A stretch of DNA of 46,373 nt from Deltaproteobacteria bacterium. Lineage in GTDB: Bacteria > Desulfobacterota > Binatia > HRBIN30 > JACQVA1. Below are positions 6,353-43,382 of this stretch, one piece after another; position 1 is the first letter of the stretch, and every line of letters starts with the position of its first letter. Position numbers and translations under genes: made by a program. The DNA is taken from contig JACQVA010000249.1 of NCBI GenBank assembly GCA_016210005.1, positions 1-46,373 on the forward strand, given 5' to 3'. The notes beneath the pieces are model-generated. The model did no database searches. It worked only from the letters and a program-made list of their open reading frames with translations, and was not told the origin of the DNA.

Positions 6353-7624
6353 ATGAACGAATTCATGTTGGACGAGCAAGGGCGGGCGATGCAGGCGAAG
6401 GTGCGCGAGTTCGTCAAGAGCGAGGTCGATCCCGAGTATCTGCGCCGGATGGATCGCGACGAGATCCGCTACCCGCGCGAACTCTACCAAACCTACGCCA
6501 AGCACGGGTTGCTCGGGCTGCGCTTTCCCAAGCAGTACGGCGGCCAGGGGCTGGACTGGGTCACCGAGTGCGCCGCCATGGGCGAGATCGGTTGCTTGGG
6601 GATGGCCGCGGGCTGCTCCTACGTCATGCCCTCCATCGTCGGTGAGGCCCTCAATACATTCGGCACCGAGGAACAGAAGGAAAAATATCTCAAGCCGATG
6701 CTGGCCGGGCGGCTGGTGTCGGCTGAGGCGCTCACTGAGCCCCGGGGCGGCTCGGACTTCTTCGGCGCCTCGAGCCGCGCGGAGGACAAGGGCGACTATT
6801 TCGTGGTCCGCGGCATGAAGCGATTCATCGTTGGAGCTGAAGGCGCCGACTTCTTCCTCGCCTACGTCCGCACCAACCTCGATTCGGACGCGCCCGCACA
6901 CGCGCGCATCAGCGCCCTGATCATCGACCGCGGCCCGGGCGTCGAGGTCAAGTACCTTTACGGCCTCATGGGTTCGCGTGGCGGCGGTACCGGACGGGTC
7001 GTTTTCCGCGACGTCAAGGTGCCCAAGGCCAATCTCATCGGTCCGCTGCACGGCGGCGCGCTGGTGTTCAACACCATGATGATTCCCGAACGCCTCACCA
7101 GCGCCGCGCCCTGCACCGGCGGCATGCAGGCGAGCCTGGACGTCGCCATGAACTACGCCGACCGGCGCAAAGCCTTCGGCCAGCCGATCCGCAAGTTCCA
7201 GGCCGTCAGCTTCATGATCGCCAAGGCGCAGGTGCTGCTCGACGCCAGCCGTGCCATGATCTATCAGGCCGCCCGCGCCGCCGACACCGAGACCCCCAGC
7301 GTCCGCCGCATCGTCTCCGAGACCAAGAAGTTCGTCACCGAAGCCGCCTGGGACGTGGCCAATCTCGCCATGCAAGTCACCGGCGGCATCGGTTACACCG
7401 ACGTCTATCCGATCGAGCGGGCGGTGCGCGACACCCGCTTGGCGCAGATTTGGACCGGCACCAACGAGATCATGAGCGCCATGATCCAGCACGACCTCTA
7501 CCAGGAGTTCCGTGCCACCCGCGGCCGTTACCGCGACTACGAACGCGACGCCATGCACGCGGACGAGTCGGAGAAGATCTTCGACGACGACGACATGTGG
7601 CAGGTGTACGACCAACAGAAGTAG
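6353..7624 (+). CDS. Acyl-CoA dehydrogenase, FAD-dependent
   Basis: A 423-residue acyl-CoA dehydrogenase, expected to introduce an alpha-beta double bond into an acyl-CoA and pass electrons to ETF. The N-terminal helical domain, the middle beta domain with 'SAEALTEPRGGSD', and the C-terminal helical domain with 'RRKAFGQPIRKFQA' and 'QVTGGIGYTDVYPIERAVRD' are all recognisable. The usual catalytic Glu of the 'YEGT' motif is replaced by Thr (IWTGT, 367-370), while Glu246 in 'IPERL' sits where isovaleryl-CoA and long-chain enzymes place their base. The ATG at 6353 follows a strong AAGGAGG; an in-frame upstream start lacks one. It stands alone before the molybdoenzyme cluster; substrate unknown. 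Confidence 0.9.
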   Translation: MNEFMLDEQGRAMQAKVREFVKSEVDPEYLRRMDRDEIRYPRELYQTYAKHGLLGLRFPKQYGGQGLDWVTECAAMGEIGCLGMAAGCSYVMPSIVGEALNTFGTEEQKEKYLKPMLAGRLVSAEALTEPRGGSDFFGASSRAEDKGDYFVVRGMKRFIVGAEGADFFLAYVRTNLDSDAPAHARISALIIDRGPGVEVKYLYGLMGSRGGGTGRVVFRDVKVPKANLIGPLHGGALVFNTMMIPERLTSAAPCTGGMQASLDVAMNYADRRKAFGQPIRKFQAVSFMIAKAQVLLDASRAMIYQAARAADTETPSVRRIVSETKKFVTEAAWDVANLAMQVTGGIGYTDVYPIERAVRDTRLAQIWTGTNEIMSAMIQHDLYQEFRATRGRYRDYERDAMHADESEKIFDDDDMWQVYDQQK

Positions 7625-7966
7625 GGTGCTCATCAGGATTGCCCCACCGCCCGCGCCGCACCCTGTAGGCCTGGTGAGCTGTGCGCCGCGCATCAGGGAA
7701 AACCCGCGGCGCCCAGCCCCTTGGGTTGTCTGACCAGCGGTTCTGCCGCCTGGGCACATCCCGGGGGTAGCTACGGCCCGCCCCACCCTCGCCCCGTCCA
7801 ACCAGTAGGTAGGCAATTGCTTCGCAGCTTGCTGACCCTGGTCATATTAGCCTGGGCAGAAGTAGCTATGAGAAGTTGCTATCCCCAATGCCGGGGAAAG
7901 CGGGTGTTATCAGCGGGGGCCCCAGCTCGGGAGTGGCAAACTAGAACCGCAAGAAGGAGGGCCAAA
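7625..7966 (+). other. 342-nt leader before molybdoenzyme cluster
   Basis: No gene is supported. The last 246 nt happen to be open in the frame of the downstream gene (from 7721), but the encoded peptide has no Tat motif and no resemblance to the second copy of the enzyme, and a strong AAGGAGG ribosome site lies just before GTG 7967. The stretch probably carries the promoter and regulatory sites of the cluster; I could not assign a convincing -35/-10 or a sigma-54 site. Confidence 0.5.
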
Positions 7967-10738
7967 GTGTCGAAGATTCAAGGCAAATGGGCTGACACCT
8001 ATCGCCAGAAATGGACCTGGGACAAGGTCACCTGGGGTAGCCACTCGGTGGACTGCTACCCGGGCGGTTGCCCTTGGCGCGTCTACACCAAGGACGGCAA
8101 GATCCTGCGCGAAGAACAAGCCGCCTCACTGCCGCCGATCGAGGCCGGCATCCCGGATATGAACCCGATGGGCTGCCAAAAGGGGGCGAGTTGGAGCCAC
8201 TGCCACTACTCGCCCGACCGCGTCACCCAGCCGCTCAAGCGCGTCGGCAAGCGCGGCGAAGGCAAATTCAAGCCGGTCTCCTGGGACGAAGCCCTCACCG
8301 ACGTCGCCGACGCCATGATCGATGCGATTCAAGACCAAGGGGCGGAGTCGGTTCTCACGCTGCTCACACCCGAACCGGGTGCGGCGGGAGCGCGCTTGTT
8401 CTCGCAAATCCTCGGCACCCCAATGACCGACGGCAACGCCGAGTTCCAGGACTTCAGCCCCGGCTTTCACGTTACTTGGGGGTTGTTCAATCCGGTGTCC
8501 AGCATGGACGACTGGTTCCTGGCGGAGCTGACGCTGATCTGGCACGCCAACCCGGTCTACACCAACATCCACTGGTACCACTACATCGCCGAGTCTCGCT
8601 ACAACGGCGGCGAGGTGGTGACCATCGCCCCCGACTACAGTCCGTCGGCGATCCACGCCGACCATCACCTGCCCGTGCGCATCGGCACCGATGCGGCGCT
8701 GGCGCTGTCGATGTGCAAAGTCATCATCGATGCCGGCCTGTACCAGAAGCAGTTCGTCCAGGAGCAGACCGACATGCCGTTGCTGGTGCGCAAGGACACC
8801 GGGCGTTTCCTGCGCGGCAACGAGATCAACGAAATGGACCGGGACGACCAGTTCTTCTGGTGGGACACGTTGACCAACGGCCTGGCCCCGGCGCCGCGCC
8901 ACACGCTCGCCACCACCGGTGTCGATCCGGCACTCGAAGGCAGTTTCACCGTCACGCTCGCCGATGGCAAGGAGGTCGAGGTCGAACCGGCGTTCGAGCG
9001 GCTCAAGCGGCACCTGGAGAACTACACGCCCGAGAAGGCCGGGGCCATCTGCGAGGTGCATCCCGACAACATCCGCAAGCTGGCGGGTAAGGTTGCGACC
9101 CGTAAGACCAAGATGTTCGTCGGCTGGAACTCCGGCAAGTATTACCACGGCGACCTGATGGAGCGCTCGATGGCGTTGCTCCTCGGCCTCACCGGCAACT
9201 GGGGCAAGAAAGGTACTGGAACACGCTCCTGGGCAATCATGGGGATGGACGGCTTCGCCTTCATGCAGCGCAAGGAAGGCGCCGGCCAGGAAGCCGCGCA
9301 GAAGCTGATCACCAACATCCTCGGCATGCGGCGCATGATGGCGCAGGCCGATCCGACGATGACCGCGGAGATGATGCAGAATCGCGGCGCGCAGATGGCC
9401 GCGGAGATCGGCGGTTTAGGAAACATGATTCCGCCCGCCTTCCTCTGGTACTACCAGTACGGCTACAAGGAACGCTGGAACAATCCCGACAACCACGACG
9501 CCTCGATGAAGCGCACCTTCGATGAGTACATCACCGAGGCGGTCGACAAGGGTTGGTGGGACGCCAGCTACTCGCAATCCTACCGCGACGGGGTGCAGCC
9601 GCGGGTGATCATCGAGGCCGGCGGCAACCTGCTGCGCCGCCAGCGCGGCGGACAGAAGATGCTGCTCGAGCACGTGTGGCCGAAGCTCAAGTTGTTCGTG
9701 TCGATCGACTACCGCATCACCACCACCGGGCTGTACTCCGATTACATCCTGCCGGCGGCGCAACACTACGAGAAGCTCGGCAACTCCATGCCCTCGATCC
9801 ACCACCTCAACTACGTGCTCTGCGATCGCGCCGCCAAGCCGGTGGGCGACGCGCTGCCCGACGCCGAGATCGGAATGCGGATCCTCGAAAAGCTCGAAGA
9901 GCGCGCCAAGGCGCGCGGCTTCACCGACTACGTCGACCGCAAGGGCAACCCCCGCACGCTTGTCGGCCTCGCCGCCCGCGCCAGCCTCGGCGGGGCGGCG
10001 CGACAGGAAGAGGCGCGCTTCGATGAGTCCGTTCGCGACCTCGCGGTCTACGGCGTGCTCCCCAAGGGGACTACGCTGCAAACGCTGCGAGAGAAGGGCT
10101 CGGTCCGCTTCGTCGGCTGGGGCATGGTCGGCCACGGGATTTCGCAGGCCTCGACTATCAAGCCCGACGAGGTCCACAACCCGTTCCGCTGGCACACCGA
10201 GGACAAGGTGCCGTACGACACCTTGGTCCGTCGCGCCCAGTTCTACATCGACCACGAGTGGTTCCTCGAAGCCGGCGAAGAGCTGCCGACGCACAAAGAG
10301 CCGCCGCCGCAGGGCGGGCGCGGCCGGCGCTTTCAGATGACCAGCGGGCACAACCGCTGGAGCATCCACTCGATGAACATGACCAACAACATCATCCTCA
10401 ACACCCATCGCGGCGAGCCGTTCGTCTTCATCAACGACAAGGACGCTGCCAGCCTCGGCATCACCAACGGTGAGAAGGTGAAGATGATCAATGACGTCGG
10501 CGAGATGCTCATCGCCGCCAAGATCACACCGTCGTGCCGGCCGGGCCAGGTGATCGTCTACAACGGCTTCGAGCCGTACATGCATGAAAACTGGTACAGC
10601 CAAGCCGACATCGAGCCGGGGCACGTAAAACACCTCGGCTTGGTCGGCAATTACGGTCACCTCAAGTATCGGATGTTCTCCTGGCAGCCGATTCCGGCCG
10701 ACCGGGCGGTGCGCGTCGACGTGCAGAAAATCAAGTGA
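7967..10738 (+). CDS. Type II DMSO-reductase-family Mo enzyme, alpha1
   Basis: A 923-residue molybdopterin oxidoreductase of the type II DMSO reductase family, the group holding ethylbenzene dehydrogenase, steroid C25 dehydrogenase, and selenate, perchlorate and nitrate reductase alpha subunits. An N-terminal [4Fe-4S] (FS0) site reads His26-x3-Cys30-x4-Cys35 with Cys70 in GCQKG; a His first ligand is a type II trait. Asp162 in FQDFSPG keeps the same spacing to the TWG motif as the Mo-ligating Asp of NarG. The C-terminal pterin domain has TSGHNRWSIHSMN. GTG 7967 is chosen because of AAGGAGG upstream and because the paralogue starts at the same residue. There is no twin-arginine signal, so a cytoplasmic location is inferred. 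Anaerobic hydroxylation of a hydrocarbon or sterol side chain is my best guess for function; reductase activity is the alternative. Confidence 0.88.
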   Translation: MSKIQGKWADTYRQKWTWDKVTWGSHSVDCYPGGCPWRVYTKDGKILREEQAASLPPIEAGIPDMNPMGCQKGASWSHCHYSPDRVTQPLKRVGKRGEGKFKPVSWDEALTDVADAMIDAIQDQGAESVLTLLTPEPGAAGARLFSQILGTPMTDGNAEFQDFSPGFHVTWGLFNPVSSMDDWFLAELTLIWHANPVYTNIHWYHYIAESRYNGGEVVTIAPDYSPSAIHADHHLPVRIGTDAALALSMCKVIIDAGLYQKQFVQEQTDMPLLVRKDTGRFLRGNEINEMDRDDQFFWWDTLTNGLAPAPRHTLATTGVDPALEGSFTVTLADGKEVEVEPAFERLKRHLENYTPEKAGAICEVHPDNIRKLAGKVATRKTKMFVGWNSGKYYHGDLMERSMALLLGLTGNWGKKGTGTRSWAIMGMDGFAFMQRKEGAGQEAAQKLITNILGMRRMMAQADPTMTAEMMQNRGAQMAAEIGGLGNMIPPAFLWYYQYGYKERWNNPDNHDASMKRTFDEYITEAVDKGWWDASYSQSYRDGVQPRVIIEAGGNLLRRQRGGQKMLLEHVWPKLKLFVSIDYRITTTGLYSDYILPAAQHYEKLGNSMPSIHHLNYVLCDRAAKPVGDALPDAEIGMRILEKLEERAKARGFTDYVDRKGNPRTLVGLAARASLGGAARQEEARFDESVRDLAVYGVLPKGTTLQTLREKGSVRFVGWGMVGHGISQASTIKPDEVHNPFRWHTEDKVPYDTLVRRAQFYIDHEWFLEAGEELPTHKEPPPQGGRGRRFQMTSGHNRWSIHSMNMTNNIILNTHRGEPFVFINDKDAASLGITNGEKVKMINDVGEMLIAAKITPSCRPGQVIVYNGFEPYMHENWYSQADIEPGHVKHLGLVGNYGHLKYRMFSWQPIPADRAVRVDVQKIK

Positions 10739-10756
10739 CGGGGAAAGGGCGATATC

Positions 10757-11794
10757 ATGGGAACGATCACACAATCGAAGCGTCAGTTGGCCTGGGTCTT
10801 CGACCTCAACAAGTGCATCGGCTGTCAAACCTGCTCGGTGGCCTGCAAGGTGCTCTGGCCGCAGGAAGAACCCGGCACCGAGCAGATGTGGTGGATGACC
10901 GTCAACACCCAGCCCGGCAAGGGCACGCCGCGTGATTGGGAGAGCATGGGCGGCGGCTACGACGCCAACGGCAAGCTCAACCTCGGCCGCATTCCCACCG
11001 ACGAAGAGGTCGGTGGGGGTTGGAACTTCAACTACGACGAGGTGCTGCGCGGCGGCAAGGGCCGTGAGGTGCACCTGCAGAAGATCTCCGGCAGTAAGAG
11101 TTGGGGCATGAACTGGGACGAAGACGAGGGCGGCGGTGAGTTCCCCAACGCCTACTTCTTCTACCTCCCGCGCTTGTGCAACCACTGCACCGAGCCGGCC
11201 TGTGTCGAGGCGTGCCCGAACGATGCCATGTTCAAGCACGAGGATACCGGCCTGGTCCTGCGCGACGAAAGCAAGTGCAAAGGCGCGCAAGTCTGCCGCC
11301 GCGCCTGCCCGTACAAGAAGATCTATTTCAACAAGATGCGCAACATCAGCCAACACTGCATCGGCTGCTTCCCGCGCCTGGAACAGGGGGTCGCCCCCGC
11401 GTGCGTGCGCCAATGCCCGGGCCGCGCCGCCTTCGTCGGCTTTCTCGACGACGAAGGCAGCGCCGTGCACAAACTGGTGCAGAAGTGGCAGGTCGCCCTG
11501 CCCTTACACCCGGAGTTCGGCACCCACCCCAACGTCTACTACGTGCCGCCGCTGTCACCAGCGCCGCTGCGCCCGGATGGCAGCTTCGATGAGAGCGCAC
11601 AGCGCATCCCGCCGTCTTACCTGGAGTCGATGTTCGGGCCCAAGGTGCACGGGGCGCTCGACGCGCTGCGCGCCGAACTCGACAAGAAGCGTCGCGGCCA
11701 GGGCTCCGAGGTGATGGACGCCCTCATCCTCTACCGCTGGAAGGACGCGCTCGGCCACCTCACCCGCGATCCGGCCGAGATCGTATGGGATTAG
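10757..11794 (+). CDS. Iron-sulfur beta subunit of Mo enzyme
   Basis: A 345-residue four-cluster ferredoxin-type electron-transfer subunit of the NarH/EbdB group. Fifteen cysteines are arranged as C20/23/26/30, C141/144/149/153, C174/180/184 and C201/204/216/220. The third group reads CKGAQVC: Ala177 stands where NarH has Trp in place of the fourth Cys, so three [4Fe-4S] and one [3Fe-4S] cluster are expected. It lies 18 nt after alpha1 and has no signal peptide, as expected since beta subunits travel with their alpha. It is the only beta gene in the cluster, so it may serve both alpha1 and alpha2. Electrons would leave through a partner not encoded here. Confidence 0.9.
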   Translation: MGTITQSKRQLAWVFDLNKCIGCQTCSVACKVLWPQEEPGTEQMWWMTVNTQPGKGTPRDWESMGGGYDANGKLNLGRIPTDEEVGGGWNFNYDEVLRGGKGREVHLQKISGSKSWGMNWDEDEGGGEFPNAYFFYLPRLCNHCTEPACVEACPNDAMFKHEDTGLVLRDESKCKGAQVCRRACPYKKIYFNKMRNISQHCIGCFPRLEQGVAPACVRQCPGRAAFVGFLDDEGSAVHKLVQKWQVALPLHPEFGTHPNVYYVPPLSPAPLRPDGSFDESAQRIPPSYLESMFGPKVHGALDALRAELDKKRRGQGSEVMDALILYRWKDALGHLTRDPAEIVWD

Positions 11795-11823
11795 CTGCCG
11801 GTTGAGACACGTGACGTACCGTT

Positions 11824-12813
11824 ATGAGTGAAGCGGCTCACCTCTGCCTGCGCGCGCAGCAAGCCACCGGCACGCGGCGCTGGTTGCACATAGCCAGCGC
11901 CGCGCTGAACTGGCTGGCGCAGCGGGTCGTATTGTTTCGTTACGGCGACTGGGTGTTCGTAACCTTCGGCCTCTTCGCCGGCCTCGGGGCGCTGGTATCA
12001 CTCACCGCGATGGGCGCCCTGCTGATCGGGCAAGGCGTCGGCGGCAAGTTCTTCTTGACCCTCGCCGTGGCCGGCAGCGCCACGGTGGTGGTGGGCTCTT
12101 GGCTTGCCGGCCAGCTGCTGGACTACCGCCTGCTGTTGGAACATCCCTGGCGAGCCCTGCGCCGGCCGGTGTTTGTATCATGGGGAGGCATTATCGCGCT
12201 GCCGTTGGTGTTGGCGATCATGGCGGCGTTGGCCGACGTCAGCCTGCTCGTACTGCTCGATGCCGCCGCTCGCACCACACCGTTGGGTCACGCACTCGGG
12301 CGGCTTGGTTGCCTGACGTACGGCTGCTGCTTCGGGCGGCCAACCGACGCAGCGCTGGCGATCACCTATCGCAACCCGCTGGCAAAGGCCGTGCGGGTGG
12401 CCGGCCTTCACAACGTGCCGCTGCATCCCGCGCCGTTCTATGAGGTCGTACTCCAGATCGGCCTAGCACTGGTAGTGAATCTGGCGGCCGTGCTCGGGGC
12501 CCCCCTGGGCCTCCCGACGGCATTGGCGTTTGTGCTCTATGGGATGGGACGCTTCGCCGTCGAGTTCACCCGTGACAACTCCGGGCGGATGATCGTGGCG
12601 CCGCTGGCGGTCAACCACCTCGTGGCGCTGTCGTTCGTGATCGGCGGCGCGCTGGCGATACCGGCACTGCTGCTCGGTTGGCAGGTGCCGCCGGCGATTT
12701 CTTGGAGCGCCGCCCTCGCCGGGGTGCCCGAGTTGGCACCCGCAATCACACCGGGTGTCGTGCTCATATTCTTTGGCTTCTCACTCCACCGCGGCCGTAT
12801 CGGCGAGTGGTAG
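11824..12813 (+). CDS. Lgt-like multi-pass membrane protein
   Basis: A 329-residue membrane protein with about seven to eight hydrophobic segments, similar to prolipoprotein diacylglyceryl transferase (Lgt). The conserved 'GRLGCLTYGCCFGRPT', 'HPAPFYEVVLQI' and 'GMGRFAVEFTRDNSGR' blocks follow Lgt order. However the catalytic-histidine block (FHGG in E. coli) reads SWGG, and the Asn of GRxGN is Cys, so classical transferase activity is doubtful. It belongs to the GCCYG-type Lgt paralogues. It sits between beta and alpha2 with gaps of 29 and 20 nt, in the place where a membrane/heme gamma subunit or a chaperone would be expected. A role in anchoring, maturation or electron transfer is speculation. 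Confidence 0.75.
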   Translation: MSEAAHLCLRAQQATGTRRWLHIASAALNWLAQRVVLFRYGDWVFVTFGLFAGLGALVSLTAMGALLIGQGVGGKFFLTLAVAGSATVVVGSWLAGQLLDYRLLLEHPWRALRRPVFVSWGGIIALPLVLAIMAALADVSLLVLLDAAARTTPLGHALGRLGCLTYGCCFGRPTDAALAITYRNPLAKAVRVAGLHNVPLHPAPFYEVVLQIGLALVVNLAAVLGAPLGLPTALAFVLYGMGRFAVEFTRDNSGRMIVAPLAVNHLVALSFVIGGALAIPALLLGWQVPPAISWSAALAGVPELAPAITPGVVLIFFGFSLHRGRIGEW

Positions 12814-12833
12814 GACTGTTCAGGAGGTTCATC

Positions 12834-15605
12834 GTGAAACCAATTGGCGGGTCGTGGGCCGAGGCGTATCGCAAGCAATGGCAATGGGACAAAGTCACCT
12901 GGGGCAGCCACTCGGTGGACTGCTACCCCGGCGGTTGCCCGTGGCGCGTCTACAGCAAGGATGGCAAGGTCGTACGTGAGGAGCAGGCGGGCGTCTTCTC
13001 GCCGATCGAGGCCGGCATCCCCGACATGAATCCGATGGGCTGTCAGAAAGGCGCGTGCTGGAGCGATTTGCTCGCCGCCCCGGACCGCATCACTCAGCCG
13101 CTGAAACGGGTGGGCAAACGCGGCGAGGGCAAGTTCAAACCCGTCTCCTGGGACGAAGCGCTCGACGACATCGCCGACTCGATGCTCGACGCGATCAATG
13201 ATCAAGGCCCGGAGTCGGTCATCACGCTCATGACGCCCGAGTTCGCCGCCAGCGCCGCGCGCATGTTCAGCGACGCTCTGGGCACCCCGACCACCGACGG
13301 CAACGCCGAGTTCCAGGACTTCAGCCCTGGCTACCACCTCACCTTCGGGCTGTTCAATCCCGTCTCGACGATGGACGACTGGTTCCTGGCGGAGCTGACG
13401 CTCATCTGGCACGCCAACCCGGTCTACACCAACATTCACTGGTACCACTACGTCGCCGAGTCGCGGTACAACGGCGGCGAGGTCGTCACCATCGCGCCCG
13501 ATTACAGCCCCTCGGCGATCCACGCCGACTATCACCTGCCGGTGCGCATCGGTACCGACGCCGCGCTGGCGCTGGCGATGTGCAAGGTGATCATCGACGG
13601 CGGCCTGTACAACAAGCAATTCGTGCAGGAGCAAACCGATCTACCGCTGCTCGTGCGTAAAGATACCGGTCGCTTCCTGCGCGGCACGGACCTCGCCGAC
13701 GACGATCGCGAGGACCAGTTCTTCTGGGCCGACGGCCACTCACACGCTGTGACCCCGGCTCCGCGCCACACCTTGGCCTCGGCCGGCGTCGACCCTGCCC
13801 TCGAAGGCACCTACACCATCATGCTCAAGGACGGCAGTGTGGTCGAGCTCGAGCCGGTGTTTCAGCGGCTGCGCCGGCACCTCGACGCGAACTACAGCCC
13901 GGAGCAGGCCGGCAAGATTTGTGAGATCCATCCCGACAACATCCGCGCACTGGCGCGCAAAGTCGCCACCCGCAAGACCAAGATCTTCATCGGCTGGAAT
14001 TCCGGCAAGTACTACCACGGCGATCTGATGGAGCGGTCGATGGCGTTGCTGCTCGCTCTCACCGGCAACTGGGGCAAAAAGGGTACGGGCACGCGCTCGT
14101 GGGCCGCCGGGGGCTGGGACGGCATGGCGTTCATGTCGGAGAAGGGCGTGCCGGGACAAGAGGCCGCCCGCATGGCGCATCAGACGCGCACGCTCATGCG
14201 GCGCATGCTGACCATGGACGATCCGACGCGCACGTTGGAGATGATCGCCAACCACGCCTCGGCGATGAACCCCGAGCTGGGCGGCTTCGGCGCGATGATC
14301 CCGCCCGCGTTCCTCTGGTACTACCAGTACGGCTACAAGGAGCGCTGGAACAACCGCGACAACAACGACCCGTCGATGAAGCGCAGCTTCGACGAGTATG
14401 TGAACGAGGCGATCGAGAAGGGCTGGTTCGGGCCGCACTGCTCTACCGCGTACAAGGAAGTCGAGCCGCGCGTCCTGTTCGAATCCGGCGGCAACATGCT
14501 GCGCCGCCAGCGCGGCGGCCAGAAGCTGCTGCTCGACAAGCTTTGGCCGAAACTCAAGATGATCGTGTCGGTGGACTTCCGCCTCAACACCACCGGCATG
14601 TACTCCGACTACATCCTGCCCGCGGCCCAGCACTACGAAAAGCTCGGCCAGAGCATGCCGTCGGTACATCACCTCAACTGGGTGCTCACCGATCGTTCAG
14701 TCCCGCCGCCGGGCGAGGCCCGCTCCGAGCACGACATCGGCATCATGATCATCGAGGCCATCGAGCGCCGCGCCGCTGCCCGCGGCATGACCGGGTTCAC
14801 CGATCGCAAGGGCACCTACCGCTCGCTCGAGGGGATGGTGGCGCGCTACACGCTCAACGGCGAGATGCGCGACGAGGAGCGTTTTTACGACGAGGCCGTG
14901 CGCGACAACGCGGTCTACGGCATCCTACCCGAAGGCACCACGCTCGAAACCCTGCGCGAGAAAGGCTACGTGCGCTGGACCGGCTGGGGCATCGCCGGCC
15001 ACGGCGAGTCGCAGGCATCGACCATCAAGGCCGATGAAGTCCACAACCCGTTACGCTGGCACACCGAAGACAAGATCCCGTACGCCACCCTGGTGCGGCG
15101 GGCGCAGTTCTACATCGACCACGAATGGTTCCTCGAAGCCGGCGAGGAGCTACCGACCCACAAGGACTCGCCCGGCCACGGCGGCCCCAAGCGGCGCTTC
15201 CAGATGACCAGCGGGCACAACCGCTGGAGCATCCACTCGATGAACATGCTCAACCGCAAGCTGCTCAATACCCATCGGGGCGAGCCCTTCGCGTTCATCA
15301 ACGACAAGGACGGCGCCAGCCTCGGCATCACCAACGGTGAGCAGGTGAAGTTGGTGAGCGACGTCGGCGAGACCATCATCCAGGCCAAGCTCACGCCCTC
15401 GTGCCGGCCGGGCCAGGTGATCGTTTACAACGGCTTCGAGCCGCTCATGCACAAGCGGTGGTACGGCCAGGCCGACGTCGAGCCCGGCCACGTGAAGCAC
15501 CTCGGCTTCGCCGCCGGCTACGGCCACCTGACGTACCGCCCCACGTCATGGCAGCCGATCCCGGCCGACCGCGCAGTGCGGGTGGATGTGGTGAAGGCGG
15601 GCTGA
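12834..15605 (+). CDS. Type II DMSO-reductase-family Mo enzyme, alpha2
   Basis: A second 923-residue catalytic subunit, the same length as alpha1 and collinear with it throughout. It keeps the FS0 ligands His26, Cys30, Cys35 and Cys70, Asp162 in FQDFSPG, and the pterin-domain TSGHNRWSIHSMN. Differences cluster in the region after residue 70 (GACWSDLLAAP versus GASWSHCHYSP), around 285-300, 430-480 and near 680-720, which may change the substrate pocket. GTG 12834 follows CAGGAGG; the longer in-frame start at 12678 lies inside the Lgt-like gene and is rejected. No Tat signal. Tandem paralogous alphas are known from sterol degraders with several S25dA copies. Whether alpha2 pairs with the single beta here is inferred. 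Confidence 0.87.
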   Translation: MKPIGGSWAEAYRKQWQWDKVTWGSHSVDCYPGGCPWRVYSKDGKVVREEQAGVFSPIEAGIPDMNPMGCQKGACWSDLLAAPDRITQPLKRVGKRGEGKFKPVSWDEALDDIADSMLDAINDQGPESVITLMTPEFAASAARMFSDALGTPTTDGNAEFQDFSPGYHLTFGLFNPVSTMDDWFLAELTLIWHANPVYTNIHWYHYVAESRYNGGEVVTIAPDYSPSAIHADYHLPVRIGTDAALALAMCKVIIDGGLYNKQFVQEQTDLPLLVRKDTGRFLRGTDLADDDREDQFFWADGHSHAVTPAPRHTLASAGVDPALEGTYTIMLKDGSVVELEPVFQRLRRHLDANYSPEQAGKICEIHPDNIRALARKVATRKTKIFIGWNSGKYYHGDLMERSMALLLALTGNWGKKGTGTRSWAAGGWDGMAFMSEKGVPGQEAARMAHQTRTLMRRMLTMDDPTRTLEMIANHASAMNPELGGFGAMIPPAFLWYYQYGYKERWNNRDNNDPSMKRSFDEYVNEAIEKGWFGPHCSTAYKEVEPRVLFESGGNMLRRQRGGQKLLLDKLWPKLKMIVSVDFRLNTTGMYSDYILPAAQHYEKLGQSMPSVHHLNWVLTDRSVPPPGEARSEHDIGIMIIEAIERRAAARGMTGFTDRKGTYRSLEGMVARYTLNGEMRDEERFYDEAVRDNAVYGILPEGTTLETLREKGYVRWTGWGIAGHGESQASTIKADEVHNPLRWHTEDKIPYATLVRRAQFYIDHEWFLEAGEELPTHKDSPGHGGPKRRFQMTSGHNRWSIHSMNMLNRKLLNTHRGEPFAFINDKDGASLGITNGEQVKLVSDVGETIIQAKLTPSCRPGQVIVYNGFEPLMHKRWYGQADVEPGHVKHLGFAAGYGHLTYRPTSWQPIPADRAVRVDVVKAG

Positions 15606-16076: not shown

Positions 16077-17612
16077 ATGATGCCGAACCGTGGTGCCGTC
16101 AGCATTGGGGCCGCTCGCTTAACCATCGCCGAGGTCGACGCGGTCGCGCGTGCAGTGGTCGCGGTGCAGCTGGAGGGCGAGGCCCGGAGCCGCCTGCTGC
16201 GCTCGTACGAGTTCGTCCAGCGGCTGGCGGAAACCAGCACGCCGGTGTACGGCTTGACCACCGGCTGCGGCCCACTGGCCACGCAGCCGATTGCGCCCGA
16301 ACGGCGCGAGGAATTTCAACGCAACCTGGTGCGCAGTCACGCCTGCACGCTCGGCGCCCCACACCCGGTCAGCTTCGTGCGCGCCGCGCTGGCGGTGCGG
16401 GCACAGGTGCTCGCCCAAGGCTACTCCGGCGTCGCCCCGGCTACGGTCGAGTTGCTCCTGGCGCTCCTAAATGACGGCATCCATCCCATCGTCCGTGAGG
16501 TCGGCGGCGTTGGCGCCAGCGGCGATCTGGTCGAGCTGGCCCAGGTCGCTCTCGCGGTCATCGGCGAAGGGCAGGTTGAATTCCACGGCAAGAGCATGCG
16601 CGCCGATGCCGCCATGGCGGAAGCCGGTCTGAGCCCGCTGACGCCGCGCTATCGCGAGGGCCTGGCGTTGATGAACGGGACCTCCTTTCACACCGGCGCC
16701 GCCGCCGTGCTCATGTCCCGCGCGCGCCGGATCATGGCCGCGGCCGAGGTAGCGGCGGCGATGGTGTTCGAGGCCTTGCGCGGCAATCTCGAAGCGCTCG
16801 CTCCCGAGTTCCAACTCACGCGGCCGCACCGCGGGCAGCGGGCGGTGGCCGAGCGCGTCGCCGCCATCGTGCGCCACAGCGCTCTGACCGGCAGCACCGA
16901 GTCCGCCGCCGGACGCCAGGACGGATACAGCTTGCGTTGCATCGCGCAGGTGTTGGGCGCGGTGGTCGACGCGCTGGAGTCCGCGGCCGCCGTCATCGAG
17001 ACCGAGTTGAACTCGGTGAGCGACAATCCGCTCTTCCTCGTCGATGACGGCCGGGTGGTACACGGGGGCAATTTTCACGGCCAGCCGGTGGCGATGGCGC
17101 TCGATCAGATGAAGCTGGCGATGGTGGAGCTGGGGGTGATGTCGGAGCGCCGCCTCGCCCGCTTGCTCGACGCCACGCTCAACGCCGGCCTGCCCCCGTT
17201 CTTGATCCGCGATGGCGCCGGGCTGCGCAGCGGCTTCATGGGGGTGCAATACTGCGCCAGCTCGATGGCGGCAGACAACGCCGTCCTCGCAGCGCCCGCC
17301 AGTGTGCGCTCGGTGCCCACCAACGCCAACAACCAGGACGTCGTCAGCATGGCCATGGTCGCCGCCCGGCAGTGCGCGCGGGTCATCGACAACGTCGAGC
17401 GCATGGTCGCAATCGAGCTGTTAGGCGCTGCCCAAGCGCTCGATCTGCGCGGCGCTGAGGGCGCCGGTACCGGCACGCGCGCGGCCCACGCCTTGATCCG
17501 CGCCCAGGCACCGCCGCTGATCGAGGACCGGCCGCTGGACGCGGATGTCGAAGCCGTATGTCGTGTGATCGACAGCGGGTCATTGGCTGGCGCCATCGAG
17601 CCGGGTTGGTGA
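16077..17612 (+). CDS. MIO-type aromatic amino acid lyase
   Basis: A 511-residue member of the histidine/phenylalanine/tyrosine ammonia-lyase family, which eliminates ammonia non-oxidatively using a self-made MIO cofactor. The MIO triad Ala147-Ser148-Gly149 lies in GGVGASGDL; the catalytic Tyr58 is in VYGLTTGCG; the Asn/Gln block NANNQDVVSM follows later. The selectivity pair (positions 87-88) is Ser-His, as in histidine ammonia-lyases, whereas NQDVVSM is more like bacterial tyrosine/phenylalanine lyases or aminomutases. No hut genes are nearby. The start ATG 16077 is immediately followed by another ATG; no clear ribosome site is seen. Substrate therefore uncertain between histidine and another aromatic amino acid. 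Confidence 0.85.
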   Translation: MMPNRGAVSIGAARLTIAEVDAVARAVVAVQLEGEARSRLLRSYEFVQRLAETSTPVYGLTTGCGPLATQPIAPERREEFQRNLVRSHACTLGAPHPVSFVRAALAVRAQVLAQGYSGVAPATVELLLALLNDGIHPIVREVGGVGASGDLVELAQVALAVIGEGQVEFHGKSMRADAAMAEAGLSPLTPRYREGLALMNGTSFHTGAAAVLMSRARRIMAAAEVAAAMVFEALRGNLEALAPEFQLTRPHRGQRAVAERVAAIVRHSALTGSTESAAGRQDGYSLRCIAQVLGAVVDALESAAAVIETELNSVSDNPLFLVDDGRVVHGGNFHGQPVAMALDQMKLAMVELGVMSERRLARLLDATLNAGLPPFLIRDGAGLRSGFMGVQYCASSMAADNAVLAAPASVRSVPTNANNQDVVSMAMVAARQCARVIDNVERMVAIELLGAAQALDLRGAEGAGTGTRAAHALIRAQAPPLIEDRPLDADVEAVCRVIDSGSLAGAIEPGW

Positions 17613-18664: not shown

Positions 18665-20140
18665 ATGGCGGATACAGCGTATGACGTGATCGTGGTCGGT
18701 GCCGGTTTTGGTGGCAGCGCCTGCGCGGGTTTGCTGGCGAAGCGCGGGCTCAAGGTGTTGCTGGTGGAGAAGAACGCCCGCGCCGGCGGCAAGGCCATGA
18801 GCCTGGCCAAGAACGGGTTCACCTACACTGCCTGGGTGGTCATCGGCGCACCGGTGATCGGCAACCTTTACGAAGCGGTGGCGAACGAACTGGATGTCGC
18901 CGACCTCATGAAGCTAGTCGCGCCGGGACGCCAGGGCAGCATCTACAAGAACGCCGCGGGCAAGTATGCCAGGCTGCCCGATATGCCGGTCGGACAGACC
19001 GACCCCAACGTCGTCTTCGACTGGCTGGAGATCAAGCCTGAGGATCGCGATCGGGCGCTGGCGTTCTTTGCTCACCTGACGATGATGCCCGCGGAAGAAA
19101 TCAACCAGCTCCACGGCATCAGCTTTCACGACTGGATCACGCGCCAGAACGTTCCCCGATCGCTGTACGCCTTCCTCGTCAGCCTCTGCTGCGACGGCAT
19201 GTTCATGGTGCCGGCGGATCTGCTGGAGGCGGCGGAGGCAATCACCAGCTTGCAGCACATGTTCCTGCGCCACGGCGGGATGTTCTGTCAGGGCGGTTAC
19301 GGTCGCGTGGCCGAGGCGTACTGTGAGGCGGTGCGGCGCCACGGCGGCACCGTGCTGATGAAGGCCAAGACCGAGCAGATCATCGCCGCCGACGGCCGCG
19401 TCAGCGGCGTCGTTACCGGCCAGGGCACCTTCACCGCCCCGATCGTCATCAGTAACGCCGGCCTGCAACCGACTGTTATGAAGCTGGTGGGGGAACAGCA
19501 CTTCGATCAGAAGTACGTCCAGTACGTGAAGAGCCTGCTGCCCTCATGGGCGCTGCTGGGATATCGCTATTTCTTGCGCCAGCCGGTGCTCGACGTCACC
19601 TACGGGGTGATCTTTTCGGACAACAGCCCGTGGAGCCTCGATCGGCTCAATCAGGCCCACGCGGGTCGGGCTTCGCGCGAAGGCGTGGTCTACTTCGAGG
19701 TGCCGTCGAACTACGATCCGGCAGCGGCGCCGCCGGGCAAGCAAATCGTCATGACCGGCTCGTTCTGCCCGCCCAGCCCACAGATGACTGCGGAAGAAAT
19801 CGCCGCCTGGGCCAACGCCGGCGAGGCCATCTTCTTCAAGGCCTTCCCCGCGCTGGCAGACGCAATCGAAGACAAGGAACTGTACACGCCCAAGGACGTG
19901 TCCAATCTGACCCGTGACTCCGCCATCCACGGCCACGGCGGCGAGACCATCGGCCTGGGACAGGTCGTGGGCCAATGCGGTCCGGGCAAGCCCACAGTGG
20001 AGGCACCGCTGCGCGGCCTGTTCTACGTCGGCTGCGACGCCGGCGGCAGCGGTGTCGGCACCCAGCAAGCGATCGAGTCGGGAATGAAGGTCGCCGACGC
20101 GGTGCTGCGCTATCACCAGGCAAGCAAAGCCGCGGCATAG
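18665..20140 (+). CDS. FAD-dependent phytoene-desaturase-like oxidoreductase
   Basis: A 491-residue NAD(P)/FAD oxidoreductase of the phytoene desaturase / all-trans-retinol saturase-like superfamily. The N-terminal Rossmann dinucleotide motif GAGFGG (12-17) is followed by 'LLVEKNARAGGKA', the second FAD contact. The C-terminal FAD motif is 'GLFYVGCDAGGSGVGTQQAI'. It has no signal peptide. The ATG follows CAAGGAGAG at good distance. It is alone on its transcript, ended by a strong hairpin terminator at 20203. Substrate could be a carotenoid, isoprenoid or other hydrophobic polyene; no carotenoid synthesis genes are close by, so that is open. Confidence 0.82.
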   Translation: MADTAYDVIVVGAGFGGSACAGLLAKRGLKVLLVEKNARAGGKAMSLAKNGFTYTAWVVIGAPVIGNLYEAVANELDVADLMKLVAPGRQGSIYKNAAGKYARLPDMPVGQTDPNVVFDWLEIKPEDRDRALAFFAHLTMMPAEEINQLHGISFHDWITRQNVPRSLYAFLVSLCCDGMFMVPADLLEAAEAITSLQHMFLRHGGMFCQGGYGRVAEAYCEAVRRHGGTVLMKAKTEQIIAADGRVSGVVTGQGTFTAPIVISNAGLQPTVMKLVGEQHFDQKYVQYVKSLLPSWALLGYRYFLRQPVLDVTYGVIFSDNSPWSLDRLNQAHAGRASREGVVYFEVPSNYDPAAAPPGKQIVMTGSFCPPSPQMTAEEIAAWANAGEAIFFKAFPALADAIEDKELYTPKDVSNLTRDSAIHGHGGETIGLGQVVGQCGPGKPTVEAPLRGLFYVGCDAGGSGVGTQQAIESGMKVADAVLRYHQASKAAA

Positions 20141-20202
20141 CAGGGCTGGAGCGCTGCCCCAGCGGTCGCGAATCAGAGCAGCGCACGACGCCAAGGTCTC
20201 TT

Positions 20203-20244
20203 GAGGGCGGGAGCGGTGTTCCCGCCCTCGGGTTTTGTAATTTT
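20203..20244 (+). terminator. Rho-independent terminator
   Basis: A 9-bp perfect GC-rich stem (GAGGGCGGG / CCCGCCCTC) with a 9-nt loop is followed by GGGTTTTGTAATTTT. It lies 62 nt after the FAD oxidoreductase stop and before the next promoter, so it should separate the two transcripts. Confidence 0.8.
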
Positions 20245-20247
20245 GCA

Positions 20248-20277
20248 TTGACGACCCCCCGAAACCGGGTTTACCAT
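20248..20277 (+). promoter_or_regulatory. Candidate sigma-70 promoter for export cluster
   Basis: TTGACG (20248-20253) and TACCAT (20272-20277) are separated by 18 nt, directly after the terminator and about 25 nt ahead of the GTG at 20301 with its AGGAGG. This is the best -35/-10 match in the gap; it is a pattern match only. Confidence 0.45.
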
Positions 20278-20300
20278 CGGTCGCAGTTTCAGGAGGGATC

Positions 20301-21302
20301 GTGACTGAGATCGCACGGGCCACAAGGCGCCGTTTAGGCAGCGCCCTGGCAGTAATGACCGCCTTGGCTTTGATTGCCGCACCGGCGGTCGCCCTCTACG
20401 GCGGCGGCGGCGTTCCCAGCAGTGATTGCTTGGCCGTCCTCAACGCCGCCGTAAACTTCCCGGCGGCCCGGCCCTCGATGATCCGCTGCACAGATGGCGA
20501 CCCGGTATGCGACGCCGACCTCACCATCAACGGCCAATGCGCCTTCTCGGTCGGCGTGTGCGTCAACAGCACGTTCGATCCTACTCGCTGCACGCTCCAA
20601 GGGGTCGATGAGGTCCTCGTCGACCATGCGGAAGATAACGGCCTTGACCCCAAGTTCGACACCGGGTTCCAATCACTGCAAGACAAGATCGAGTCAGACC
20701 TCACCTTTCCGAACGCGGCCGCCGATTCCTGCGCTACCGCAGCCACCATCTACGTGCCGATCAGGGGGCCGTTCGGCACACCCGGGCGCCATTACTGCGT
20801 GCAGAACTACAAACTGCTGAAGCTCGCCACCGTCTCGACCTTCATCGGCGGTAAGGTTTACAGCGACACCGATATGCTGCGCATGATCTGCCTACCGGCG
20901 GCCAAGGAAAGCGGCGGCTGTGATCCGCGGACACTGTTCAGCGGTACTTACGATCGCATCCAGAAGCAGGTCTTCACGCAGAGCTGTGCCACCGGCACCT
21001 GTCACGATTCCCAGAGTCAGCGGGCCGACTTGCTACTCGAGCCCGGCGCCTTCCCCGGCAACCTCGTCAACGCCGCTCCCACCAACGCTAGCGCGGCGGC
21101 GGCGGGCTGGACGCGCCTGACGCCGGGTGATCCGACCACCAGCTATGTCTATCGCAAGATCCAGGGCGGCCTGCCGGACCTATCGTACGGCGAGCGCATG
21201 CCCTGGCACCGCCCGCAGCTCGAAAAGAACTTGCGCGAGGCAATTCGGCTCTGGATTCTCGATGGCGCTAGCCCCGGCGGCTGGGTTACAGGCACCGACT
21301 GA
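20301..21302 (+). CDS. Exported c-type-cytochrome-like protein
   Basis: A 333-residue protein with a Sec signal peptide (positive RRR then 'ALAVMTALALIAAPAVALYG'). The N-terminal two thirds is cysteine-rich and not recognised. The C-terminal third resembles a cytochrome c fold: a CATGTCH motif (Cys-x4-Cys-His rather than the usual x2), then 'GDPTTSYVYRKIQGG', and finally 'GERMPWHRPQLEKN...AIRLWI', where the Met of RMP sits at the place of a distal heme ligand. Whether heme is bound with a four-residue spacer is uncertain. The GTG start is set by AGGAGGGATC. It leads a likely operon with DUF1800 and DUF1501 genes (gaps of 28 and 19 nt). Confidence 0.72.
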   Translation: MTEIARATRRRLGSALAVMTALALIAAPAVALYGGGGVPSSDCLAVLNAAVNFPAARPSMIRCTDGDPVCDADLTINGQCAFSVGVCVNSTFDPTRCTLQGVDEVLVDHAEDNGLDPKFDTGFQSLQDKIESDLTFPNAAADSCATAATIYVPIRGPFGTPGRHYCVQNYKLLKLATVSTFIGGKVYSDTDMLRMICLPAAKESGGCDPRTLFSGTYDRIQKQVFTQSCATGTCHDSQSQRADLLLEPGAFPGNLVNAAPTNASAAAAGWTRLTPGDPTTSYVYRKIQGGLPDLSYGERMPWHRPQLEKNLREAIRLWILDGASPGGWVTGTD

Positions 21303-21330
21303 GCCCGCGGCCTGAGGTTGAGGAGGATGT

Positions 21331-22842
21331 ATGGGAGATCAATACAGCGTCTTGAGCACCGCCGACGCCCGGCAGCTCTTGCGGCGCGCCGGCTTCTCGG
21401 GCACGCCGACCAAGATCAAGTACTTGGTCGGCAAGACCCGCGGCGCCGCCGCTGACTCGTTGCTGCGCTTCCGCTCGATCAAGATCAAACCCTACGGGCG
21501 CGACATCGAGGGGGTACGCCGCGCGTGGCTACGTACTATGCTGACAGCGCCTTTTCCGTTGCAGGAGAAGCTGATCCTGTTTTGGCACGACCACTTCGCC
21601 ACCGGCGCCGACAAAGTCAGTGACCCGAAAATCATGTCCGACCAGATCGGCCTGCTTCGCCTCTACGCCAAGGGCAACTTCAAGGCGATGGTGAAGGCGA
21701 TCAACAAGAACCCGGCGATGATGTGGTTCCTCGACACCATCCTCAATCGCAAGAGCCAGCCGAACGAGAACTATGCCCGTGAGCTGCAAGAGCTGTTCAC
21801 TCTCGGCGTCAAGGATCTGCTCGGCGTCGACAACTACACGCAAGCGGATGTCGTGCAGATTGCCCGCGCCTTCACGGGCTGGCGTTTCGACTACACCACA
21901 CTGGTGCCGTCGATGTCGACGTCACGCCACGACTTCCAGTACCCGCCGAGCTATTCCGGTCCCGACCGCGGCGACAAGGTGATCTACAAGAACCGCGCGC
22001 CCTTCGGCAGCAACGGTGCCGCCTACGCGGCCAACGCCGGCGAAGAGGGCGAGGCGGAGATCGACAAGATCATCGATATCATCTTTCAGCACCAGGATAG
22101 CCAGGGCCACAACACCGTCGCGCGCCACATCGCCCACAAGCTCTTTACCTATTTCTGCCACGCCACGCCGCCGCTGACCACCATCGATGAGCTGATCACG
22201 GCTTCGAGCTTCGACACCCAGTTCGAGATCGCGCCGCTGGTGCGGGCCATGCTCTGCCACGATGAGTTCTATGCCACGGCCGCGCCGGCGCCGTTCGACG
22301 CCACCACCAAGAAATCGGTGAAGTGGCCGATCGATTACGTCGTCAGCACCATGCGCCTATTCAGCATGCGCCCCGATTCGCGCTACTGGACCGTTGGCTA
22401 TGCTGAAAGCGAGGTCACTGACCACCTCAGCAACATGGGGCAAAACCTGCTCGAACCGCCGAGCGTATTCGGCTGGGATTGGGAAGCGGGGTGGCTCAAC
22501 AGTGCCACCATGCTGGCGCGTTACAACTTCGCACGCGACGTGATCGCGGCGCGGCGGTTCAGCATCTTCGGCTTCCATCCTGAGAACATCCGCGTTAGCT
22601 CGACGCTGAAGCTGATCGACCTCACCGCCCCCGCGGACATCGTCAACGCCGCCACCGACTATCTCGGCATCACCGACCAATTGACGCTGGCTGATCGCAC
22701 CGCGCTGATCGCGTATCTACAGGACGATGGTAACGGCGGCACCTACACCACGCTCGACCTGCACGACTACGACATCCGCCACACCAAGCTGCACGGCCTC
22801 TTCGGAGTCCTGCTGCAATCCGCCGCCTACCAGTTGCATTGA
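21331..22842 (+). CDS. DUF1800 family protein
   Basis: A 503-residue DUF1800 protein. Family landmarks include 'LILFWHDHFATGADKVSD', 'NENYARELQELFTLGV' and 'DVVQIARAFTGWRFD', with 'LLEPPSVFGWDWEAGWLNS' further on. No signal peptide is evident at this start, although the function of the family is thought to lie at the cell envelope and it is normally found beside a DUF1501 gene, as here. Its biochemical role is not established. ATG 21331 follows AGGAGGATGT. It is flanked by the cytochrome-like gene upstream and the DUF1501 gene 19 nt downstream, so all three are probably one transcript. Confidence 0.9.
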   Translation: MGDQYSVLSTADARQLLRRAGFSGTPTKIKYLVGKTRGAAADSLLRFRSIKIKPYGRDIEGVRRAWLRTMLTAPFPLQEKLILFWHDHFATGADKVSDPKIMSDQIGLLRLYAKGNFKAMVKAINKNPAMMWFLDTILNRKSQPNENYARELQELFTLGVKDLLGVDNYTQADVVQIARAFTGWRFDYTTLVPSMSTSRHDFQYPPSYSGPDRGDKVIYKNRAPFGSNGAAYAANAGEEGEAEIDKIIDIIFQHQDSQGHNTVARHIAHKLFTYFCHATPPLTTIDELITASSFDTQFEIAPLVRAMLCHDEFYATAAPAPFDATTKKSVKWPIDYVVSTMRLFSMRPDSRYWTVGYAESEVTDHLSNMGQNLLEPPSVFGWDWEAGWLNSATMLARYNFARDVIAARRFSIFGFHPENIRVSSTLKLIDLTAPADIVNAATDYLGITDQLTLADRTALIAYLQDDGNGGTYTTLDLHDYDIRHTKLHGLFGVLLQSAAYQLH

Positions 22843-22861
22843 ACCTGAAGGGAGGGGAGGC

Positions 22862-43309: not shown

Positions 43310-43382
43310 GGGCAGGTAGCTCAGTCGGTAGAGCAAAGGACTGAAAATCCTTGTGTCGAGTGTTCGATTCACTCCCTGCCCA
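43310..43382 (+). tRNA. tRNA-Phe (GAA)
   Basis: A full cloverleaf can be drawn: acceptor GGGCAGG/CCTGCCC, D-arm GCTC/GAGC, anticodon stem AAGGA/TCCTT with loop CTGAAAA (anticodon GAA), a 5-nt variable loop and T-arm GAGTG/CACTC with loop TTCGATT. The 3' CCA is not encoded. The gene is directly followed by an integrase gene, and its 3' half is the probable attachment site of the element to the right. Confidence 0.95.

Follow-up and report, generated by a model that had tools for sequence, protein, structure and literature searches.

The subject of this analysis is a cluster of four genes on contig JACQVA010000249.1 of the Deltaproteobacteria bacterium assembly GCA_016210005.1, a stretch of 46,373 nucleotides that is called the window throughout. 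The first gene, alpha1 (7967-10738), encodes a catalytic subunit of 923 amino acids (aa) with a molybdenum-bis(molybdopterin guanine dinucleotide) cofactor, which was assigned to the EbdA branch based on Pfam, NCBIfam, a structure match and its ligands, and which does not have a twin-arginine leader. It is followed by beta (10757-11794), which encodes an EbdB-like iron-sulfur subunit of 345 aa (NCBIfam, structure match, cysteines). The third gene (11824-12813) encodes an Lgt-like polytopic membrane protein of 329 aa, which has diverged from prolipoprotein diacylglyceryl transferase (PF01790, match to 5azb, alignment with four relatives). The last gene, alpha2 (12834-15605), encodes a second molybdenum catalytic subunit, again of 923 aa and without a twin-arginine leader, and it is orthologous to alphas of other families. 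The intergenic gaps are 18, 29 and 20 nucleotides. The open reading frame (ORF) coordinates, all on the plus strand, thus verified the four-gene run, the 923-residue alphas and the gaps of the original prediction. For beta the start at 10757 was taken, which retains the first cluster motif; the start at 10850 proposed by the gene caller was rejected, because it would remove this motif. The cluster lacks three tested features of the described EbdA-type enzymes, i.e., a leader on alpha and, within the cluster, the gamma and the delta subunit.

Both alphas contain PF00384 and PF01568 (molybdopterin oxidoreductase and dinucleotide-binding domains), and beta belongs to the Fer4 families. The best NCBIfam models were TIGR03479 for the alphas and TIGR03478 for beta, which describe the alpha and beta subunits of type II dimethyl sulfoxide (DMSO) reductases. 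The curated cut-offs were not reached, neither by the alphas (854 and 850 bits versus 984.75) nor by beta (471 versus 481 bits). All five leaderless alphas of the window's genome that were tested stayed below the TIGR03479 cut-off, one of four leader-bearing alphas passed it (993 bits), and ClrA had a score of 1346. With the NCBIfam EbdA model the two alphas scored 731 and 749 bits, far under the cut-off of 2000. Among solved structures, alpha1 matched ethylbenzene dehydrogenase (2ivf) with 695 bits, followed by perchlorate reductase (443 bits) and NarG (176 bits), and 2ivf was also the nearest solved structure for beta. The alignments with EbdA and EbdB cover almost the full length of the window proteins. 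The identity to EbdA is 39 and 40% for the window alphas (37-43% for the whole branch described below), and alpha1 and alpha2 are 73-74% identical to one another.

Public genomes were searched with an alignment of the three closest alphas of the window's genome. This yielded 41 loci, which are labeled as metagenome-assembled genomes (MAGs) of Deltaproteobacteria, Myxococcales/Myxococcaceae/Myxococcota, Chloroflexi/Chloroflexota/Dehalococcoidia or unclassified organisms, plus one gammaproteobacterium; further loci came from other relatives. The alpha tree contained 91 rows, i.e., 88 alphas, EbdA, ClrA and a haloarchaeal homologue. Two run-on ORFs (L068 and L110 16432-19998) and copies identical over residues 101-600 had been left out, the duplicate loci L072, L077, L094, L095 and L097 were dropped from the neighborhood counts and the beta tree, and betas shorter than 300 aa from the beta tree. 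Both window alphas were found in one clade of 56 alphas (SH-like approximate likelihood ratio test, SH-aLRT, 100), most of which are sequences of uncultured bacteria. A clade of 59 rows (SH-aLRT 100) consists of these 56, EbdA and two leader-bearing alphas (L088 and L116), the latter three being just outside the 56. Among the three references, of which EbdA forms a long branch, the 56 alphas group with EbdA, and neither ClrA nor the haloarchaeal protein is part of this group. A GNWGKxGTG-type stretch is common to the branch and EbdA and is not present in ClrA. The beta tree showed a corresponding split, in that the 34 betas of the leaderless branch formed one clade (100/100), apart from four called betas that adjoin a gamma.

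The cofactor ligands are conserved. In alpha1, the ligands H26, C30, C35 and C70 of the FS0 cluster, D162 as the equivalent of the molybdenum ligand and K391 are kept. Across the branch, the molybdenum-ligand-equivalent aspartate and the equivalent of EbdA K450, the active-site lysine that keeps this ligand in place, are present in 56/56 alphas, and the His and the three Cys of FS0 in 54-56, the remainder being gaps. At the position of EbdA His192 a Glu was found in 47 of the 56 alphas, and mostly an Asn (23/30) in the leader-bearing alphas. An active site without this His has also been described for S25DH (PMC6153880). In the window beta, all 15 cysteines of the aligned region of EbdB are kept. 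As judged from the sequences, the alphas are type II DMSO reductases of the EbdA branch that are set apart from the sampled references (EbdA, ClrA and the haloarchaeal protein). The best NCBIfam models, the 2ivf match, the tree and the ligands agree with the original assignment to the type II DMSO reductase family. The phylogeny that had been suggested together with that assignment was realized in part, i.e., the alphas form a clade of their own near EbdA in a tree with EbdA, ClrA and the haloarchaeal homologue.

An unusual characteristic of the sampled branch is the missing leader. A twin-arginine leader with an [ST]RRxFL-type motif was found at none of the 56 called N-termini. The upstream frames were also examined, to guard against starts that had been called too late; a looser RR motif was present in 6 of the 56 upstream in-frame extensions, and inspection by eye revealed that none was followed by a hydrophobic stretch. 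For alpha1, the leader motif was seen neither in the called N-terminus nor in the upstream in-frame extension. Among the remaining 32 alphas, a leader was present as called in 27 and after upstream extension in four more, and the last starts at the edge of its locus, which means that all 31 testable alphas carry a leader. At L109, the window alpha2 and the L106 alpha2 the gaps to the preceding gene are 4 to 39 nucleotides, so that there is no room for a leader unless the genes overlap. A single leader loss would be sufficient to account for the pattern, because the sister alphas in L088 and L116 carry leaders.

Next, gamma and delta subunits are considered. Searches with PF09459 and TIGR03482 revealed neither a heme-b gamma nor a delta chaperone adjoining the cluster in the window's genome, and thus the predicted difference to the alpha-beta-gamma-delta gene order of ethylbenzene dehydrogenase was confirmed. 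In this genome PF09459 was detected at two loci only, both with larger, leader-bearing alphas of 1151 and 1153 aa. TIGR03482 matched only on contigs C128, C232 and C262, in all cases below the cut-off, and in none of the clusters with leaderless alphas. In relatives, gamma stands together with a second type of beta and with leader-bearing alphas. A gamma on the same strand and at a distance of at most 2.6 kb was found for 2 of the 56 leaderless alphas. For genome G012 (L111), a gamma next to a branch-type beta had been considered and was rejected, because tblastn finds a second-type beta between the gamma and a leader-bearing alpha. In two loci a small membrane protein is encoded directly 5' of a leaderless alpha (L064 7337-7867 and L067 6524-7066). 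That of L067 is a cytochrome b561 (PF01292), which is a candidate for the electron acceptor at this locus and might replace gamma there.

In principle, the cluster could encode an ordinary periplasmic enzyme of the EbdA/S25DH type, whose alphas would be exported by an unseen route or on a leader-bearing partner, and whose gamma would be encoded elsewhere. A periplasmic location is given in PMC10100899 for the alkyl hydroxylases S25dA, CmdA and EbdA and also in PMC7411048 for S25DH and S26DH, and in L070, L074 and L112 leader-bearing alphas are in line with a branch beta. Nevertheless, this explanation is unlikely, in view of the total absence of leaders from the sampled branch versus their presence in all testable other alphas, the short gaps in front of three alphas that exclude a leader unless genes overlap, and the confinement of PF09459 in the window's genome to the two loci with larger alphas.

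The number of alphas is much higher than the number of betas. On its 268 contigs, the window's genome (5.9 Mb, completeness 97.6%) encodes 23 EbdA-like alphas, 7 leaderless and 16 leader-bearing, and five complete EbdB-like betas plus a stub of 39 residues at a contig end. A beta adjacent to the alpha was detected by tblastn for 40 of the 56 leaderless alphas and, when the stub is counted, for 4 of the other 32. A third paralogue, alpha3, is encoded on contig C116 of the window's genome and belongs to a lineage that has no adjacent beta in six of seven cases. The identities are 73-91% within and 67-75% between the alpha1, alpha2 and alpha3 lineages, and in the tree each lineage occurs in more than one family. 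By sequence, the three are therefore old paralogues, and a recent local tandem duplication of alpha was rejected by the tree. Alpha1 and alpha2 differ near the molybdenum site at EbdA positions 137, 193 and 389, and alpha3 differs also at 222 and 446, based on a list of positions that we take to line the EbdA pocket. Position 193 is Pro or Val in alpha1, Phe in alpha2 and Met or Leu in alpha3, position 222 is Gln, Gln and His, respectively, and position 446 is Trp, Trp and Cys.

A similar imbalance has been described for Sterolibacterium denitrificans, which has fewer beta-gamma genes than alphas, and for which sharing of beta-gamma by several alphas has been proposed and used (PMC6016249). 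The original prediction had offered two alphas on one beta or a new branch of the family as options. The alphas do outnumber the betas and they do form a separate branch, so that the two options turned out to be compatible; beta sharing as such is not new. Already known is the sharing of betas in Sterolibacterium, and new is the leaderless branch, which is gamma-less here; no description of this branch was recognized from titles or the beginnings of abstracts among the PMC papers searched. In addition, three leader-bearing alphas are arranged in tandem on contig C52 of the window's genome (L046, 11240-19833), with an overlap of 8 nucleotides and a gap of 16 nucleotides. They adjoin the sole trace of a second-type beta in this genome, a gene that is truncated where the contig stops.

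It might also be that alpha1 and alpha2 do not share a beta, that one of them alone is active with the window beta, and that the arrangement of the genes suggests a pairing only by coincidence. In G012 and G013 the alpha2 orthologues have their own adjoining beta, and S25DH1 preparations from S. denitrificans are described as containing other alphas, which made activities hard to assign (PMC6016249). The conservation of alpha1, alpha2 and alpha3 as separate lineages in several families and their differences near the molybdenum site argue against this explanation, which is improbable.

The gene order was found to be conserved in a genome of another family of the same order, G008, which contains alpha1-beta-alpha3-Lgt-alpha2. 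The identities to the window proteins are 87% for alpha1, 89% for beta, 60% for the Lgt-like protein and 90% for alpha2. None of the other genes called at the G008 locus matched a window protein at more than 35% identity. The search for a conserved order in related genomes, which had been suggested with the prediction, hence revealed that the block is kept with an added alpha3 in spite of different flanks. Because the block recurs with this one extra alpha in G008, an assembly accident was ruled out. In G013, a counterpart of the acyl-CoA dehydrogenase of the window (86.5% identity) is located two genes upstream of beta-alpha2, and alpha1 and the Lgt-like gene are not present at this site. A stretch of 58 bases 5' of alpha1 (window 7793-7850) matches a segment 5' of the G008 alpha1 (L106 3019-3076) at 86%. 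The genes farther out from this match differ between the window and G008, and it is perhaps a promoter or operator.

The third gene scored 88.9 bits with PF01790 (LGT, cut-off 24.9), and its protein has the GRLG, HP..YE and F..EF.R stretches in common with E. coli Lgt (5azb). The NCBIfam lgt equivalog gave 48.5 bits, in comparison to a cut-off of 118.9, and a role as the cell's own lipoprotein transferase was rejected on scores below the NCBIfam lgt cut-offs. In the alignment with 5azb the His before GG is replaced by Trp, the Asn after GRLG by Cys and the Glu of NGE by Cys; His and Asn belong to the active site of E. coli Lgt. This His is kept in one of five aligned Lgt-like proteins, and a GCC stretch is common to all five. 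An AlphaFold model from two sequences had a mean predicted local distance difference test (pLDDT) score of 35.9 and was not used. Strong Lgt-like relatives (E <= 1e-20) were found in 5 of the 148 genomes of the class, and close branch alphas (E <= 1e-240) in 10. All five genomes are among these ten, which has a chance of about 5e-7 when the relatedness of the genomes is ignored; three of the five are from one family. The Lgt-like gene touches branch alphas in three of the five genomes (the window's, G008 and G107). In the other two genomes it adjoins a gene that resembles the TetR gene found beside Lgt-alpha in G107 and beside an alpha in L065 and L069; the TetR assignment was confirmed by Pfam for L109 only. 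Titles and beginnings of abstracts among the PMC papers searched revealed no paper that pairs an Lgt-like gene with molybdoenzymes.

The neighboring genes give hints about the pathway. An acyl-CoA dehydrogenase (6353-7624, plus strand) is encoded directly upstream of alpha1 and might be functionally linked to the cluster. Of the neighbors named in the original prediction, this gene is indeed adjacent, and the crotonase and two TetR genes are about 15 kb away. In 12 of 32 genomes an acyl-CoA dehydrogenase was located no more than five genes away from a leaderless alpha. Three further families were seen in these neighborhoods, namely a thiolase-like family, named from the look of its sequence, in 5 genomes, APH-type kinases in 3 and sulfotransferases in 2. 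These families would fit an activation of the alcohol and beta-oxidation, and the use of hydrocarbons or sterols may be suspected. In L062 (6338-7809) and L063 (6333-7798) a kinase-like gene, APH by Pfam in L063, overlaps a small unknown gene, both being divergent from a leaderless alpha; its product might phosphorylate the alcohol product. That the cluster encodes a reductase of oxyanions or N-/S-oxides instead of a hydroxylase, as might be thought because reductases of nitrate, chlorate, perchlorate and selenate are found among the type II DMSO reductases and the EbdA model scores are so far under the cut-off, is likewise improbable, given the wide margin of ethylbenzene dehydrogenase over perchlorate reductase among solved structures, the clustering with EbdA, the stretch shared with EbdA and not ClrA, and the acyl-CoA dehydrogenases near such alphas.

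Further genes of the window were also noted. An aromatic amino acid lyase is encoded at 16077-17612, and its longer ORF clears one of two histidine ammonia-lyase cut-offs and is narrowly below the second. On the 3' side of the cluster, the region 18665-24331 encodes a CrtI-like flavin adenine dinucleotide oxidoreductase, an unknown protein, a DUF1800 protein and a protein with DUF1501 that begins with a twin-arginine-like sequence. A tRNA gene (43310-43382) has a phage-type integrase gene beside it (43468-44598), like the edge of an integrated element.

Taken together, we favor, with a probability of roughly 0.6, that the cluster encodes a cytoplasmic, water-using molybdenum C-H hydroxylase of the EbdA branch, which has the two subunits alpha and beta, and in which the alphas are interchangeable on one beta. 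The alpha-beta enzyme would fold and work in the cytoplasm. Alpha1 or alpha2, and probably also alpha3, which is encoded elsewhere in the genome, would bind the same beta. Each alpha would have its own hydrophobic C-H substrate, from which its molybdenum site would abstract a hydride and into which it would insert oxygen derived from water. The electrons would leave via the iron-sulfur clusters of both subunits and reach an acceptor other than the usual periplasmic heme-b gamma. After its activation, the alcohol would enter an oxidation of the acyl-CoA dehydrogenase type.

Several points weigh against a cytoplasmic alpha-beta enzyme with exchangeable alphas. In 6 of 32 genomes a gamma is located at most five genes away from a leaderless alpha, though any beta that adjoins this gamma belongs to the second type, as tblastn showed also for G012 and L064. 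Missing betas or gammas could lie in the gaps of fragmented MAGs. Beta sharing is not a general rule, as 40 of the 56 leaderless alphas adjoin a beta. In L074 (2185-9038), L070 (1239-5832) and L112 (5142-11829) a leaderless alpha-beta pair is directly followed by a leader-bearing alpha that has no own beta adjoining, and therefore the branch beta may in some genomes work with exported alphas as well, i.e., act in two compartments. In addition, the gene calls were made with a home-made caller, and the tree, in which EbdA is a long branch, does not include S25dA, CmdA, AhyA, DdhA, SerA, PcrA and NarG.

More tentatively, the branch could be regarded as a widespread plug-in system that has moved into the cytoplasm through the loss of the leader, the heme subunit and the private chaperone. 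Long-diverged alphas (alpha1, alpha2, alpha3 and others) would dock on one beta, the Lgt-fold protein would be a membrane or substrate partner that replaces gamma, and in some genomes beta would serve cytoplasmic as well as exported alphas.

Among known systems, EbdABC (2ivf) is similar in the near end-to-end alignment of alpha and beta and in the conserved cofactor residues, namely the molybdenum-ligand Asp, Lys450, the ligands of FS0 and 15 cysteines of beta. In contrast to EbdABC, the window has two alphas and the Lgt-like gene, the leader, an adjoining heme gamma and delta are missing, and His192 is replaced by Glu. NarGHI is a type II enzyme with cytoplasmic alpha and beta subunits, as proposed here; it differs from the cluster, since NarG was a distant structure match and the NarG model gave 207 bits versus a cut-off of 1084, and Pfam revealed no NarI-like membrane subunit among the four cluster genes. 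The steroid C25/C26 dehydrogenases of S. denitrificans are also similar, as far as described, in having several alpha paralogues with fewer betas and gammas (PMC6016249) and no active-site His (PMC6153880). By their description, S25DH and S26DH differ as alpha-beta-gamma enzymes with a twin-arginine leader (PMC7411048), and 8 alphas are described for S. denitrificans versus the 23 of the window's genome. The last example is the alkane C2-methylene hydroxylase AhyABC of Desulfococcus oleovorans, which is proposed as an EbdA-like anaerobic hydroxylase for alkanes and is described with three subunits (PMC7803848). Here the comparison was based on the description and on a primer, not on the AhyA sequence; the stretch SLGKKGC, translated from the published AhyA primer (PMC7803848), is absent from the 53 of the 56 branch alphas that were checked, all of which have NWG.

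If it is true, a cytoplasmic alpha-beta form would differ from the described alkyl hydroxylases of the branch that were checked, which are all listed as periplasmic (EbdA, S25dA and CmdA; PMC10100899). It would place an oxygen-independent C-H activation beside ATP- and CoA-dependent steps, and intermediates would not have to be shuttled over the membrane, an issue that is discussed for S. denitrificans (PMC7411048). The cytoplasmic form would also be a simpler expression target with two genes. With 23 alphas and few betas, the determinants of the substrate range are open to a direct test through swaps of alphas on one beta.

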